From a virus: DNA of 64,000 nt. Shown one piece after another: positions 47,682 to 61,049 of the stretch. Position 1 is the stretch's first letter. Each line of letters opens with the position of its first letter. Under the pieces are notes generated by a model that saw nothing but the letters and a program-made list of their open reading frames with translations, made no database searches and was not told the origin of the DNA. The stretch is from positions 270,373 to 334,372 of IMG/VR virus record IMGVR_UViG_3300027899_000001. One strand, given 5' to 3'. The position numbers and the translations under genes were made by a program.

Positions 47682-50213
47682 TTACCTTAAAAATGTAACA
47701 TCGCCAACTTTTTCGAAGTAATCACCATTTATGTATCTTCCTGAGGCTCTCCATACATAAACTCCTTGAGGCGCAAGATTTCCATCTTCAAAATATCCAT
47801 CCCAGCCTTTCATTAAATCTCTACTTTCATAGATAAGAACTCCCCATCTATTAAATATTTGAAGATAATATTCTATGACATTTTCAAAATGAGGTCTAAA
47901 AACATAATCCATTTCTGAATATACTCCTTCTTGCCATTGTCCACCAGTTGGTCCTGAACCATTCCATTTAAAAGCATTTGGAAATTTTATAGTTCCTCCT
48001 GACCATTTAACAGTTATGGGTAAATTACTTAATACATTATCACTGCATCCGTAATCATTTTTTGCATATAATGTAACCCAGTAAGAACCTTCATTCTCAT
48101 ATTTATGCCAAGGATTTATATCATAACTTAATTCGGTTCCATCTCCAAAATCCCATGCATAATAATCTGCGTACTGAGAATAATTATAAAATGTAACTAT
48201 TTGAGTATTACTATAAATATCTTTAGGATAATAATCAAATGATGCAATAGGACTTTGAAATACAGTAACCATTCCTTGGTGAAAAGAAGATCCTGCAATA
48301 TTATATACAGTTAATCTTACAATATAAGAACCTGGAAGATTATAAGTATGTACAGGATTAAATTCATTAGAATAAGATCTATCTCCAAAATCCCATAAAT
48401 ATGATTCTCCATATACACTTAAATTTCTAAATGTAACTACCATTGGATTACATCCTACAGTATCTGGAGCAAAATAAGCTAAAGGAACAGGAGGCAATAC
48501 AACTTGAATATGAATAGTATCAAATGTCGTGCATCCCCATTGATCAGGAGGAATAGTATATGTAACTACATGTTCTCCTATATCTGCAATTTTTGGATCA
48601 AAGGTGGAGCCCACAACTCCTATTCCACTCCAAATTCCGCCTTCAGGTGTTGCATGTAATACTACAGATGGTCTATTAAGAAAAATAGTTCCGACTTGTT
48701 GTATTTCTATATTAGGAATAGGCATTACAGTTACAATAGTGCTATCTACATCTTGGCAATCTGTATTTACAATATTATAGACTATTAAATGATCTCCAGG
48801 ACCTGTAATTTCTGGATGAAATACATTTCCAATCATTCCTAATCCTGTCCAAATTCCACCTAAATCATGTGTATTTACTGTAATAGGCGTACTATTCACA
48901 CATAAAGTATCTACAGGAGTTATCGTTGCATTCGGAGTTGCTACAGTTATAGTTGTTGTATCACTATTACTACATCCACTTACATTTATACTATAAATAA
49001 TTCTATGATTTCCCGATCCCGCCAAAATAGGATCAAATACATTTCCTACAACTCCTGCTCCTATCCATGTGCCTCCTGGATCATGTGCTACTAAAGTAAC
49101 AGGCGCATCAGAAGAACATACTATACTTGGTGCAGATATCGTTGGATCAGGAATTGGCGATACTCTTATATATGTTGTATCACTATCACTGCATCCTTCT
49201 CCACTTGTTATTGTATGTATAATTCTATGATTTCCTGGGCCTGCAACTGTAGGATTAAAAATATTTCCCGAAACTCCGGGTCCTGACCATTCTCCATTTG
49301 GAGACACACTTGTTAAAGTTACAGGATTTGCATTTGAACACATCGAATCAACAGGATTGATTGCTGCATCGGGATAAGGAACTATTAATATAATAGCAGT
49401 TGTAACCACTGGAGGAAAATCTCCATTTACTTTATCTCTTGGTTGTCCGGGAATACTTGGGTCATCATAAGGATTACAATAATTCCAGTTTCGTAATGTT
49501 ACTTGAAAATATTGTCCAACTAATTTATCATTAGCTACATTCATTACATCTGAATAAACACCCGATCCTGTAACAGGACCAGGAAGAGTAATTATGCGAG
49601 CTGTATCTGGATACATTGTAGAATGTCCATCTATTGTAACAGGAATTCCTGTCATAGTTATATCAGTTCCATAAATCCATTGTATCCATCTTGTATTAAT
49701 ATTTGGATTATCTCTTTCTTGAGGTGGAACACAATTAAATAAAGTTAAATCTTGAAATCTAACATCTGCTCCATTTCCAAAGCATATTGGATAAACAGTA
49801 GGATCAATATGCATACGTCCACCATTATGATTATCATCATCCCATACAGTTACTATTTGTTCTTGTGCTGAAGAAGTGCAAAGAACACCATTAACTCTAA
49901 GCATCGCTTGAGGATGATAATTACAAACATCTCCAGCTGACGTATAGGTATTAGTTGCCGTTGCTTGAAAAATACCAGGACCTACCATAACTGCTGGAAC
50001 ATCTACAACAGTACCATTATTCCAATCAAATTGAATACTTACAGGCGTACCAGCATCATTAACTCCAGTATAACTTACATTCCAAACTGCTATAACAGGA
50101 GAACATAATTTATCTGGAGTAATATTATTAGCTTTAGAAAATATTGTACAAGTTTGCCCAAAAATATTAAGCGAAAGAAATGATAAAATTAAATATAGAA
50201 ACCATTTTTTCAT
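47682..50213 (-). CDS. T9SS type-B cargo: Ig-like/PKD repeat surface protein
   Basis: 843 residues. Signal peptide (LYLILSFLSLNIFG/QTC). After ~260 residues of PKD-like N-terminal domain there are four ~70-residue repeats (~280-575) of the form GxWxGxGVxGNxFxPxxAGxGNHxIxYxI...GCxxxDTxxI. Next come two PKD domains (YLWDFGDRSYSNEFNPVHTYNLPGSYIVRLTV; YAWDFGDGTELSYDINPWHKY). The C-terminal ~95 residues (TIKFPNAFKWNG...YYLQIFNRWGVLIYESRDLMKGWDGYFEDGNLAPQGVYVW) match the gliding-motility CHU_C domain, the T9SS type-B signal. Expected to be exported to the cell surface through the host T9SS. Confidence 0.88.
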   Translation of the reverse strand: MKKWFLYLILSFLSLNIFGQTCTIFSKANNITPDKLCSPVIAVWNVSYTGVNDAGTPVSIQFDWNNGTVVDVPAVMVGPGIFQATATNTYTSAGDVCNYHPQAMLRVNGVLCTSSAQEQIVTVWDDDNHNGGRMHIDPTVYPICFGNGADVRFQDLTLFNCVPPQERDNPNINTRWIQWIYGTDITMTGIPVTIDGHSTMYPDTARIITLPGPVTGSGVYSDVMNVANDKLVGQYFQVTLRNWNYCNPYDDPSIPGQPRDKVNGDFPPVVTTAIILIVPYPDAAINPVDSMCSNANPVTLTSVSPNGEWSGPGVSGNIFNPTVAGPGNHRIIHTITSGEGCSDSDTTYIRVSPIPDPTISAPSIVCSSDAPVTLVAHDPGGTWIGAGVVGNVFDPILAGSGNHRIIYSINVSGCSNSDTTTITVATPNATITPVDTLCVNSTPITVNTHDLGGIWTGLGMIGNVFHPEITGPGDHLIVYNIVNTDCQDVDSTIVTVMPIPNIEIQQVGTIFLNRPSVVLHATPEGGIWSGIGVVGSTFDPKIADIGEHVVTYTIPPDQWGCTTFDTIHIQVVLPPVPLAYFAPDTVGCNPMVVTFRNLSVYGESYLWDFGDRSYSNEFNPVHTYNLPGSYIVRLTVYNIAGSSFHQGMVTVFQSPIASFDYYPKDIYSNTQIVTFYNYSQYADYYAWDFGDGTELSYDINPWHKYENEGSYWVTLYAKNDYGCSDNVLSNLPITVKWSGGTIKFPNAFKWNGSGPTGGQWQEGVYSEMDYVFRPHFENVIEYYLQIFNRWGVLIYESRDLMKGWDGYFEDGNLAPQGVYVWRASGRYINGDYFEKVGDVTFLR

Positions 50214-51967: not shown

Positions 51968-51992
51968 ATTCTTATATTAAAAAAGTTTTGGC

Positions 51993-52078
51993 GGATGAGG
52001 TGGGGTTCGAACCCACGGACCACTTACGCGATCATTAGTTTTCAAGACTAACGCCATAGACCACTCGGCCACCCATCC
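51993..52078 (-). tRNA. tRNA-Ser(TGA)
   Basis: 86 nt, class II. Acceptor GGATGGG/CTCATCC, anticodon stem TTAGT/ACTAA with loop CTTGAAA (TGA), long variable arm, T-loop TTCGAAC. Fourth serine tRNA; together they cover all six serine codons. Confidence 0.93.
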
Positions 52079-52085
52079 AATTTGA

Positions 52086-52156
52086 GCCGAAAAAGGGTTT
52101 CGAACCCCCAACCTATAGTTTACAAAACTATTGCTCTACCATTGAGCTACTTCGGC
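52086..52156 (-). tRNA. tRNA-Thr(TGT), copy 1
   Basis: 71 nt. Acceptor GCCGAAG/TTTCGGC, anticodon stem ATAGT/ACTAT with loop TTTGTAA (TGT), T-loop TTCGAAA. No CCA. Confidence 0.92.
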
Positions 52157-52164
52157 GTTTTTGA

Positions 52165-52236
52165 GCCCCCATGAGAATTCGAATCCCAGTCTTCGGTGTA
52201 CAAAACCGACATAATTACCATCTATACGATGGAGGC
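52165..52236 (-). tRNA. tRNA-Thr(TGT), copy 2
   Basis: 72 nt. Acceptor GCCTCCA/TGGGGGC, anticodon stem TCGGT/ACCGA with loop TTTGTAC (TGT), T-loop TTCGAAT. Its body resembles glutamate/glutamine tRNAs more than copy 1, so identity by anticodon alone should be treated with some care. Confidence 0.82.
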
Positions 52237-52245
52237 ATTTTTTGA

Positions 52246-52316
52246 GCCCTTACGCAGCTTCGAACTGCGAGTTCTACGATACCAACGTAGTGTTTTTCCT
52301 ATTGAACTATAAGGGC
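52246..52316 (-). tRNA. tRNA-Thr(GGT)
   Basis: 71 nt. Perfect acceptor GCCCTTA/TAAGGGC, anticodon stem CTACG/CGTAG with loop TTGGTAT (GGT), T-arm GCAG/CTGC with TTCGAAG. Confidence 0.92.
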
Positions 52317-52328
52317 ATTAAAAATCGT

Positions 52329-52404
52329 TCCGAAGGAGGGGGTCGAACCCTCATGTAACCAATTACCCTTTCAACAGTGTATAAGACAGGGGGGATACTC
52401 CGGA
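52329..52404 (-). tRNA. D-arm-less tRNA, probable Ile(TAT)
   Basis: 76 nt. Acceptor TCCGGAG/CTTCGGA (7 bp) and T-arm GAGGG/CCCTC with TTCGACC are excellent. A 7-nt linker TATCCCC replaces the D-arm. The loop CTTATAC (TAT) sits on a weak stem (CCTGT/ACTGT), and the variable region holds a GTAA-TTGG-TTAC hairpin. Alignment with the D-arm-less tRNA-Ile(GAT) at 63183 (shared TATCC, CTxATAC, GGTAATTxGGTT) supports this reading. A degenerate class II tRNA is the alternative. Confidence 0.6.
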
Positions 52405-52409
52405 GTGGA

Positions 52410-52522
52410 GCGTGTTCCTGGATTTGAACCAAGACTTCCGCAATTACGAGTGCGGTGTTCTACAAAGGATTTTCTCGTGAGAAATGGTACCAATTTCCTT
52501 TCCTTCCTTAAACTACACACGC
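52410..52522 (-). tRNA. tRNA with D-loop insertion and 8-nt anticodon loop
   Basis: 113 nt. Acceptor GCGTGT/ACACGC, D-stem GTTT/GAAC, anticodon stem CCGCA/TGCGG, T-arm CTTGG/CCAGG with TTCAAAT. The D-loop contains about 40 extra nt (52464-52505) that fold on themselves (AAAGGA/TCCTTT closing, inner TTCT/AGAA). The anticodon loop is CTCGTAAT, 8 nt. Reading after T33 gives CGT (Thr); dropping the C gives a normal Tyr-like GTA loop. It may need splicing or be a frameshift-type tRNA, or be a pseudogene. Confidence 0.65.
52464..52505 (-). other. Structured insertion within a tRNA D-loop
   Basis: The insert begins and ends in purine/pyrimidine runs that pair (AAAGGA with TCCTTT) and contains a GGTACC palindrome and a TTCTCACGAGAA hairpin. 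Removing it restores a D-loop of ordinary length (AAGG...GTA). Exact boundaries are uncertain by a few bases. Confidence 0.5.
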
Positions 52523-52529
52523 ATTAAAA

Positions 52530-52730
52530 AATTAACTATGAGCATAGCCGCCATTCTGTTCTATTCCACCATTTGTCTATGCCTCAACCTTGTTATTATA
52601 GACCAGCTCACCGTCTAAACTATTTTGAGTTGCATCCTCGGCGGTTCAATCGATTATTAGTCTCCCTCCTTAAGCTGTGATGTGGCGAACTTCCTCACCT
52701 TTCGGCGCGATGGATCCTCGGTAGTTAATT
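52530..52730 (-). ncRNA. rnpB: Miniature RNase P RNA
   Basis: A 201-nt RNA with the conserved bacterial RNase P RNA blocks in order. The ends pair as P1 (9 bp, 52722-52730 with 52530-52538). A GNRA hairpin CGCC-GAAA-GGTG stands at P3 (52696-52707). CR I reads GAGGAAGTTCGCC (52684-52696), and the CR II region contains AACCGCCGA (52638-52646). CR IV reads GAGGCATAGACAAATG (52570-52585). CR V is ACAGAA followed by TGGCGGCTAT (52545-52559), where TGGCG pairs with CGCCA of CR I as P4. Cellular forms are ~350-400 nt, so peripheral helices are missing. It would cut tRNA 5' leaders, presumably with host RnpA. Confidence 0.85.
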
Positions 52731-58115: not shown

Positions 58116-59099
58116 TTAAAATTCAGGACATGGAAGAGCTCTCATTCGTTGTTTTCCATTTCTTTCAAAAAATCTATTAAATTCATAGATAAATGAAATT
58201 TCATGAGCTCCAACTGTTGCTCTATTGAGACTAGAAATTGTAAAATCGTAACTATAGCCAACAAATATATTTTTTGTTTTTAATCCTGCTAAACCTATAA
58301 CTGCATCTCCTGGTTGATTTGATAATCCTGGAATGCCTCTATACCAAAGTCCTAAAATAAGTGGAGGTCTTGCATAATAAACTCCTACATCTGCTTGATA
58401 AAACTTTCCTTGGGTTTGTAAATTAACTGCTAAAGAAACAACATCTTGTCGTTCTATTTTAAGTCTTTGTTTCTTTATTATTTGTATTCCTCCATATAAG
58501 TTTACCTTTACTGGAACTCTTGATTCATCTCCATAAAAAGAAATTTTAGGAGTTAACATATGATCTACTGTTACTCCACTCCATATTCTATCATTATACG
58601 CTATTATCGATGAAGCAAAGTCTATACTTGCTGAATTATCAAAAGTTGGTGGAATAACTGGAGGAGTATTGTTTATATTACTATTAAATATAAGTTTGTT
58701 AATATCTAATCCTAAATATTGAAATTTGAAATTAACACCAGGCCTTACATGCCATGTATTATTAATTTTAATATCATAAGAATATAAAGCTCCTATTGTT
58801 GTATTACTTAAATCTCCTGATCCTGCTACATCGTATGATGCAATTATTCCTATTCCTGAATTATATTGAGGTAACGCTTTATCAAATGAAACACTATAAG
58901 TGTTATAGATATTTGATATTCCAGGCCACTGATTTCTATAATTCATTGTTAATCTATAATCTTCTGTAGCACCTGCAAAAGATGGCGCTAACCATAACTT
59001 GTTGGCATAAAATTGTGAATACGTTGGATCTTGTGCAAAAGTATTTGAATAGATTACAAATAACAGAATAAATGAACATATGTATTTTACAATACGCAT
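58116..59099 (-). CDS. PorP/SprF-family outer-membrane protein
   Basis: 327 residues. Signal peptide (YICSFILLFVIYSNTFA/QDP), then the family opening DPTYSQFYANKLWLAPSFAGATEDYRLTMNYRNQWPGI, and barrel strands to the end (FVGYSYDFTISSLNRATVGAHEISFIYEF). PorP/SprF proteins associate with the T9SS and are usually encoded next to large type-B (CHU_C) cargo such as SprB, helping to export or anchor it. Here the type-B cargo is at 47682, about 8 kb away. Confidence 0.92.
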   Translation of the reverse strand: MRIVKYICSFILLFVIYSNTFAQDPTYSQFYANKLWLAPSFAGATEDYRLTMNYRNQWPGISNIYNTYSVSFDKALPQYNSGIGIIASYDVAGSGDLSNTTIGALYSYDIKINNTWHVRPGVNFKFQYLGLDINKLIFNSNINNTPPVIPPTFDNSASIDFASSIIAYNDRIWSGVTVDHMLTPKISFYGDESRVPVKVNLYGGIQIIKKQRLKIERQDVVSLAVNLQTQGKFYQADVGVYYARPPLILGLWYRGIPGLSNQPGDAVIGLAGLKTKNIFVGYSYDFTISSLNRATVGAHEISFIYEFNRFFERNGKQRMRALPCPEF

Positions 59100-60185: not shown

Positions 60186-61049
60186 TTATTTTTTTATTAT
60201 CTTTAAAACTTGAATTATATTTCCTTTACTATAATCAGTTATAAGTAATATGTATAAACCGGATTTATAATTTAACATATCTATTAATACTGTTTCGCTC
60301 ATCATTTTTTCTTCATATAATAATGAAGCTTTTTGATCATATATTCTAAATACTATTCCTGTATTATCTTTTATTGATAAATTTAATTTATCAGTAACAG
60401 GATTAGGCCAAACATTAATATCAATTTTTATACTATCAACTGTAATAAATTCTTTAATAACAGGAATTAAAAGTAATTTTGTGCCATTTATTGTTTCAAA
60501 TGTAACTTCATCTGACATTACATAATCTCTGCAATCTGCCTCTGTTATTTGGCCTTCGGTTAAAGAAAGAAATAAAGTTTTATTACTTCCTATTCCATTA
60601 TAGATATTAAGCTTAAATTGAGTATCAAATGTTGTAATAATAGGTTCAACAAATAAGTATTGTCCAGTAAATAAATCGCTCCCTAATTCAGCTTTTCTTA
60701 ATGATGCATAATAAATCGTATCTACAGGACCTTCATATTTGTATATAATTAAATTTGTATTTCCTGTAGTTTTAAATTCAAATGTTACTATATCATTTGG
60801 AAAACCAAAATTTATTATCTTAAAATCATCTGGTTGTTTAAGACCATCCCAAACTCTCGCCGATAATAAAACCTTTGACCTGCAGATTATTCCTTGATTT
60901 TCATACCATGTACTATTTATTGTTCCTTCTGTTCCAAATCTTATTCTTCTAAAATTGGATTTATTACCTTTCAAAGAATCATATACAATATCTTGCGCAG
61001 ATATTGATAAAGACAATAACCAAAAAAGAATAATAAGAAATACTTTCAC
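60186..61049 (-). CDS. T9SS type-A cargo protein
   Basis: 287 residues. Signal peptide (VFLIILFWLLSLSISA/QDI), a beta-rich passenger of ~185 residues, and a C-terminal ~75-residue type-A sorting domain (INVWPNPVTDKLNLSI ... FRIYDQKASLLYEEKM ... INDM-like LIDMLNYKSGLYILLIT, ending VLKIIKK). The domain directs secretion through the T9SS followed by cleavage and anchoring. The passenger shows no enzyme motif. Confidence 0.88.
   Translation of the reverse strand: MKVFLIILFWLLSLSISAQDIVYDSLKGNKSNFRRIRFGTEGTINSTWYENQGIICRSKVLLSARVWDGLKQPDDFKIINFGFPNDIVTFEFKTTGNTNLIIYKYEGPVDTIYYASLRKAELGSDLFTGQYLFVEPIITTFDTQFKLNIYNGIGSNKTLFLSLTEGQITEADCRDYVMSDEVTFETINGTKLLLIPVIKEFITVDSIKIDINVWPNPVTDKLNLSIKDNTGIVFRIYDQKASLLYEEKMMSETVLIDMLNYKSGLYILLITDYSKGNIIQVLKIIKK

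Follow-up and report, generated by a model that had tools for sequence, protein, structure and literature searches.

Can a 201-nt RNA encoded in the tRNA array of a phage be a genuine RNase P RNA, and what would a virus use it for? RNase P, which trims tRNAs in bacteria, is among the oldest RNA enzymes and has been treated as a cellular component. The locus in question lies in a 64,000-nt stretch of DNA (the window) taken from a 405,016-base virus record that encodes a phage major head protein and a head protease.

A miniature RNase P RNA gene

We searched the locus (451 nt) with Rfam covariance models at a relaxed threshold. The archaeal RNase P RNA model RF00373 matched positions 52540–52719 with 44.7 bits (E=1.4e-11), spanning the model end to end, and a search of the 405-kb record with the same model returned a single match (E=3.1e-12). 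The original prediction of a 201-nt element was thereby borne out; it runs from 52730 to 52530 on the minus strand (Table 1), and the relaxed Rfam search gave no RNase P match on the plus strand of the locus. The match to the archaeal model places the feature far beyond chance as a real RNase P RNA. Its score lies below the Rfam cut-off for RF00373 (84 bits), and at curated thresholds Rfam calls only tRNAs at this locus and no RNase P RNA. The bacterial type A model RF00010 did not match the window copy at E≤1e-3. Because cmscan reports the top model per clan, here RF00373, the score of the T-type (Pyrobaculum) model is hidden. Minimum-free-energy folding of the window copy was no better than that of shuffles (z=0.04). 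Energy folding thus misses the fold, so that comparative evidence alone reveals the structure, and folding was not used as evidence.

Table 1 Features of the window copy, tRNA genes beside it, and rnpA genes of other phages that carry the RNA
Feature	Position	Strand	Basis or remark
RNase P RNA gene, P1 to P1	52530–52730	-	201 nt
P1 outer stem, AAUUAACUA/UAGUUAAUU	52722–52730/52530–52538	-	sequence
P1 inner stem, GAG/CUC	52717–52719/52540–52542	-	sequence and covariation
P2, UCCAUC/GGUGGA	52709–52714/52565–52570	-	
P3 hairpin, CGCC-GAAA-GGUG	52696–52707	-	sequence
CR I, GAGGAAGUUC	52687–52696	-	conservation
P4, 5' strand AGU, bulged U52688, CGCCA	52683–52691/52546–52553	-	
P5, CAUC/GAUG	52679–52682/52633–52636	-	
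P6, CAGCU/AGCUG	52673–52677/52604–52608	-	pseudoknot with P17 loop
Reduced specificity domain, P7 and one small hairpin cap	52640–52669	-	pairing, covariation
P7, GGAGG/CCGCC	52665–52669/52640–52644	-	89.5% paired, double changes present
P15, CUCA/UGAG	52626–52629/52583–52586	-	covariation
P16, GUU/AAC	52618–52620/52592–52594	-	covariation
P17, UAGAC/GUCUA	52613–52617/52599–52603	-	covariation
GGU loop	52587–52589	-	G, G and U each 98% conserved in 54 sequences
CR IV, AGACAAAUG	52570–52578	-	conservation
CR V, ACAGAA-UGGCG-GCUA	52545–52559	-	contains P4 3' strand
tRNA, anticodon CGU	52406–52522	-	expanded D arm (long hairpin), encoded 3' CCA
Downstream tRNAs	51989–52316	-	ARAGORN, RF00005
Thr-GGU	52244–52316	-	ARAGORN, RF00005
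Thr-UGU	52163–52236	-	ARAGORN, RF00005
Thr-UGU	52084–52156	-	ARAGORN, RF00005
Ser-UGA	51989–52078	-	ARAGORN, RF00005
rnpA, LR756502	525186–525488		P RNA in same genome
rnpA, LR745206	76444–76752		P RNA in same genome
rnpA, IMGVR 3300032236_002285	440379–440669		P RNA in same genome

The conserved blocks CR I, CR II, CR IV and CR V had been read in the right order. CR I, CR IV and CR V are indeed in place, but CR II is not, as the stretch from P6 to the 3' strand of P5 measures only 36 nt, room for P7 and one small hairpin. By inspection, P8–P12, CR II and CR III are absent from the window copy, and P18 is absent as well. The loss of CR II and CR III led us to file the RNA as a reduced variant rather than a standard member.

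Viral homologues and a covarying fold

To compare homologues, we built a covariance model (R1) from seven compact members and aligned the rest to it, since MAFFT misplaced P5–P7 in longer members. R1 matched all 62 loci searched (54 distinct sequences, all viral) at E≤1e-13. Most of these loci are outside the model, although the pattern used to find many of them had the CR I and CR V signatures in common with it; the window copy scores 176 bits by construction. Searching annotated phages with blastn placed the RNA in 735-kb and 642-kb huge phages and suggested the cultured Stenotrophomonas phage DLP6, and further blastn searches added phages of 634.8, 595 and 484 kb, giving five huge-phage genomes (484–735 kb) in addition to DLP6. 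Pattern scans of IMG/VR contributed 15, 35 and 5 additional contigs. Among contigs encoding relatives of the window's head protein, 4 of 16 (mostly fragmentary) carry the RNA. The homologues sought in related phages therefore exist in number, and many large tRNA-rich bacterial viruses carry a half-size RNase P RNA. The DLP6 copy occupies an unannotated gap between a coding gene and a tRNA-Arg and scores 54.7 bits against RF00010 (E=2.2e-14); both it and the homologue at L025 (32.3 bits) fall below the cut-off of that model (100 bits). When 16 homologous loci were scanned with Rfam, an RNase P model matched only four of them at E≤1e-4, and all 16 stayed below the cut-off.

R1 found nothing in five records that serve as negative controls: T4, KVP40, phage G, the 636-kb LR756504 and one Acinetobacter phage. 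The exact compact pattern had no match in 84,980 cellular genomes, and a broader pattern found four contigs there, none of the phage type: three were rejected for lack of an R1 match, and the fourth scored 27 bits over ~300 nt, as might be expected of a normal bacterial rnpB. Two sets of viral candidates were also discarded. One match from the first degenerate scan (L018) was ruled out by its sequence as a chance match, and the Acinetobacter phage matches (H5–H12) covered merely 29 nt within coding genes, the one record searched having no R1 match.

Covariation in the family is overwhelming. Across 22 sequences, 95.2% of pair cells were standard versus 66.9% in shuffles, and the covariation score was 0.704 against 0.179 when shuffled (reached in 0 of 500 shuffles) and at most 0.093 with partners slid. 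Across 54 sequences the score was 0.735 versus 0.175 shuffled. Pair counts on a model-fitted alignment are biased toward that model; the P4 and P6 pseudoknots are not in the model and are thus the strongest structural tests. P4 was paired in 98.9% of cells with double changes in six of its eight pairs, and its bulged U was found in 22/22 homologues. The two sides of P6 (the strand after P5 and the P17 loop) were complementary in 22/22 homologues while drifting jointly, and none of 20,000 re-pairings between sequences equaled the cognate complementarity. The remaining helices agree with this fold: inner P1 (95.5% paired, double changes in 3/3 pairs), P2 (99.2%, 5/6 pairs), P5 (98.9%, 4/4 pairs; 99.5% across 54 sequences), the small hairpin capping P7 (91.7%, double changes present), and P15, P16 and P17, which covary in both the 22- and the 54-sequence alignments. 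In P3, two base pairs were examined and both were always paired (100%), and many homologues have a GNRA loop.

These results uphold the pairing of the two ends, the GNRA P3 hairpin and the complementary P4 halves CGCCA/UGGCG, all anticipated from the letters alone. In P1 and P4 the homologues show compensatory changes instead of disrupted pairing, disruption having been named beforehand as grounds for refutation. Outside the helices, the core is near-invariant among the 54 homologues: GAGGAA of CR I, AG..AAU of CR IV, ACA-A and GG-UA of CR V, and the further bases GCAA, GGU and ACAGAA. In bacterial RNase P RNA, the GGU loop binds the CCA of tRNA.

Relation to known RNase P RNAs

The closest likeness is to type A (RF00010, E. 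coli M1), with which the phage RNA shares P1–P7, P15–P17, CR I, CR IV and CR V, the P6 pseudoknot into L17 and GGU in L15. It also shares a P4 of 3 bp, a bulged U and 5 bp, the geometry of E. coli M1. In contrast to type A, it is encoded by phages, lacks P8–P12 and CR II/III, lacks P18 in its short forms, and reads GAGGAAGUUC in CR I where type A has GAGGAAAGUCC. DLP6 and LR756501 have extra hairpins before CR IV that may correspond to P18. Between the inner P1 strands the phage RNA measures 175–264 nt, whereas 340–420 nt is typical of type A (PMC4919922).

Other reduced forms resemble it in part. The Pyrobaculum type P/T RNA likewise consists of the catalytic domain only, having lost nearly all of its specificity domain (PMC4919922), but it is cellular and archaeal and works with archaeal proteins, whereas the phage RNA has type A features and, in three phages, a bacterial RnpA encoded in the same genome. 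The archaeal RNA of RF00373, the best-scoring Rfam model for the window copy, similarly lacks P18; unlike it, the phage RNA has no P8–P12, and its carriers have a bacterial RnpA or none. We infer that the RF00373 score probably reflects the missing P18 and not descent. An engineered E. coli RNA, Eco CP RPR, also combines a C-domain without S-domain, a P6-like contact and a dispensable P18 (PMC5839562). In that work the C-domain alone cleaves and does not need P18, and its efficiency likely depends on the P6-like contact (PMC5839562). The helices of the phage family match these needs, with P6 kept and P18 dropped in short forms; the laboratory construct has in the phage RNA a counterpart that arose and evolves in nature. 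RNase P RNAs of CPR bacteria are also missed at default Rfam cut-offs and lose, for example, P12 (PMC8172020); they are cellular genes, and loss of the whole of P8–P12, as in the phage RNA, is not described in the parts of that report available to us.

tRNA setting, plausible protein partner and inferred function

Many copies of the RNA gene lie within arrays of tRNA genes. All 22 carrier records examined have 7–72 tRNAs, with 39 in the window's record, where the RNA lies on the strand of every tRNA called by ARAGORN in the window. A tRNA lies within 1 kb in 35 of the 54 loci (flanking sequence available), the nearest tRNAs within 1 kb being on the strand of the RNA in 60/60 cases, and at 14 loci no more than 20 nt separate the end of the match from the start of a tRNA, which lies just after the 3' strand of P1. 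Several homologues, including L019, L020 and L052, have no tRNA in a few kb of flanking sequence. In the window, a CGU tRNA missed by ARAGORN begins about 7 nt after P1; its acceptor, D, anticodon and T stems fold as a cloverleaf. This tRNA is a probable co-transcribed substrate, and the tRNAs downstream of it are presumed substrates. Between them, at ~52322–52405 on the minus strand, lies a sequence that resembles a tRNA, with UCCGGAG/CUUCGGA as its possible 7-bp acceptor and GGGUUCGACCC in its T arm, called by neither ARAGORN nor Rfam. CCA is encoded by only 3 of the 20 tRNAs that ARAGORN calls in the window, and a search of the window's record for a CCA-adding domain found none, so contact with the GGU loop would depend on CCA addition by the host.

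Several further features of these genomes were recorded. Domains of the CCA-adding-enzyme type (PF01743) occur in six carriers (LR756502, LR745206, LR756508, LR756501, LR756511 and IMGVR 3300005681_000225). Some carriers have tmRNA genes (L030:1263-1644, L039:5069-5412, L094:1020-1389) or CUA-anticodon, amber-reading tRNAs (L028:8568-8641, L039:9933-10005, L068:12076-12152); the latter genomes are possibly recoded. The window encodes PorP/SprF and proteins with type IX secretion signals (CHU_C, Por_Secre_tail) at 58116–59099, 47682–50213 and 60186–61049 (minus strand), which fits a Bacteroidota host. Beside the head genes, at ~6025–33898 on the plus strand, is an extended series of apparent glycosyltransferase, sugar-nucleotide and methyltransferase genes, recognized by eye.

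The protein subunit RnpA (PF00825) is encoded by three huge phages that carry the RNA (LR756502, LR745206 and the 476-kb contig IMGVR 3300032236_002285), and both phage RnpA sequences inspected contain the motif KKFKRAVDRNR.KRLMRE. No RnpA was found in the other carriers tested, including the window's record, and there the RNA would have to be bound by host RnpA. Bacterial RnpA proteins function with P RNAs of other species (PMC4919922), making host RnpA a plausible partner. A separate 242-kb viral contig, possibly incomplete (IMGVR 3300025770_000870), has no R1 match but encodes an RnpA that shares 75% identity with the LR745206 protein.

We consider it very probable that this is a type A-descended, catalytic-domain P RNA carried by phages, which cleaves the leaders of phage tRNAs, mostly with host RnpA; its activity is inferred. 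The RNA would assemble with host RnpA, or with phage RnpA in the three huge phages, and the holoenzyme would cleave the 5' leaders of the phage tRNAs, whose transcripts come from the arrays that hold the RNA gene. If a tRNA begins directly after P1, cutting its leader would at the same time release the RNA's own 3' end. That the RNA is expressed, acts as a catalyst, employs host RnpA and releases itself is inferred throughout. The conserved core, the GGU loop and the tRNA setting argue for catalysis on tRNA precursors; against a working ribozyme, there are no expression or activity data, and the host already has an RNase P, leaving the benefit unshown. The initial proposal that the phage supplies a stripped-down P RNA, perhaps working with host RnpA, remains the best-supported reading, given the covariance-model match and the compensation in P1 and P4.

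Three other explanations were weighed. The RNA could be a non-catalytic decoy or regulator whose RNase P-like shape sequesters host RnpA or bound tRNAs and slows host tRNA maturation. Most carriers lack rnpA, so that the RNA would compete with host P RNA for RnpA, and the loss of the specificity domain would be tolerable. A decoy is nevertheless improbable, since bases unneeded for shape are kept (the bulged U of P4, CR I/IV/V and the GGU loop), the genes stand among tRNAs which themselves require maturation, and three of the phages supply an RnpA as well. It is similarly unlikely that the RNA is catalytic in the manner of RNase MRP, cutting phage mRNAs or freeing itself from a polycistron while the host enzyme matures the tRNAs. 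In its favor, the phage RNA has lost the specificity domain, with which bacterial P RNA touches the T loop of tRNA, copies without an adjacent tRNA occur, and 14 loci have a closely following tRNA, but the CCA-binding GGU loop is 98% conserved and every carrier tested is tRNA-rich. That the RNA is a decaying host rnpB fragment acquired by chance, as its shortness and its scores under Rfam cut-offs could suggest, is scarcely tenable: 54 distinct sequences are under strong structural selection, covariation refutes decay, and none of the 84,980 cellular genomes yielded a confirmed match to the compact pattern.

Our search of the open-access literature turned up no description of a phage RNase P RNA; bioRxiv preprints and subscription papers were outside its scope, and priority is not fully excluded. 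RNase P goes unmentioned in the main text of the papers on DLP6 and on huge phages, both of which used tRNA finders. The RNA has seemingly gone unnoticed because standard annotation misses it, its homologues lying below Rfam cut-offs. A new family model would enable annotators to detect such RNAs, which account for unannotated gaps in phage tRNA arrays.

The RNA is a known ribozyme in a new viral form that is widespread. It likely represents an old, widespread viral lineage that has shed its specificity domain and acts as a dedicated phage tRNA-processing enzyme, accompanied by RnpA in some huge phages and maybe self-releasing. These natural half-size RNAs amount to dozens of deletion experiments on what the ribozyme requires, and the cultured DLP6 makes its RNA directly testable. 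If the reading is right, the RNA and phage RnpA would constitute a complete virus-encoded RNase P in some huge phages, suggesting that huge phages take over tRNA maturation, beyond tRNAs and synthetases.
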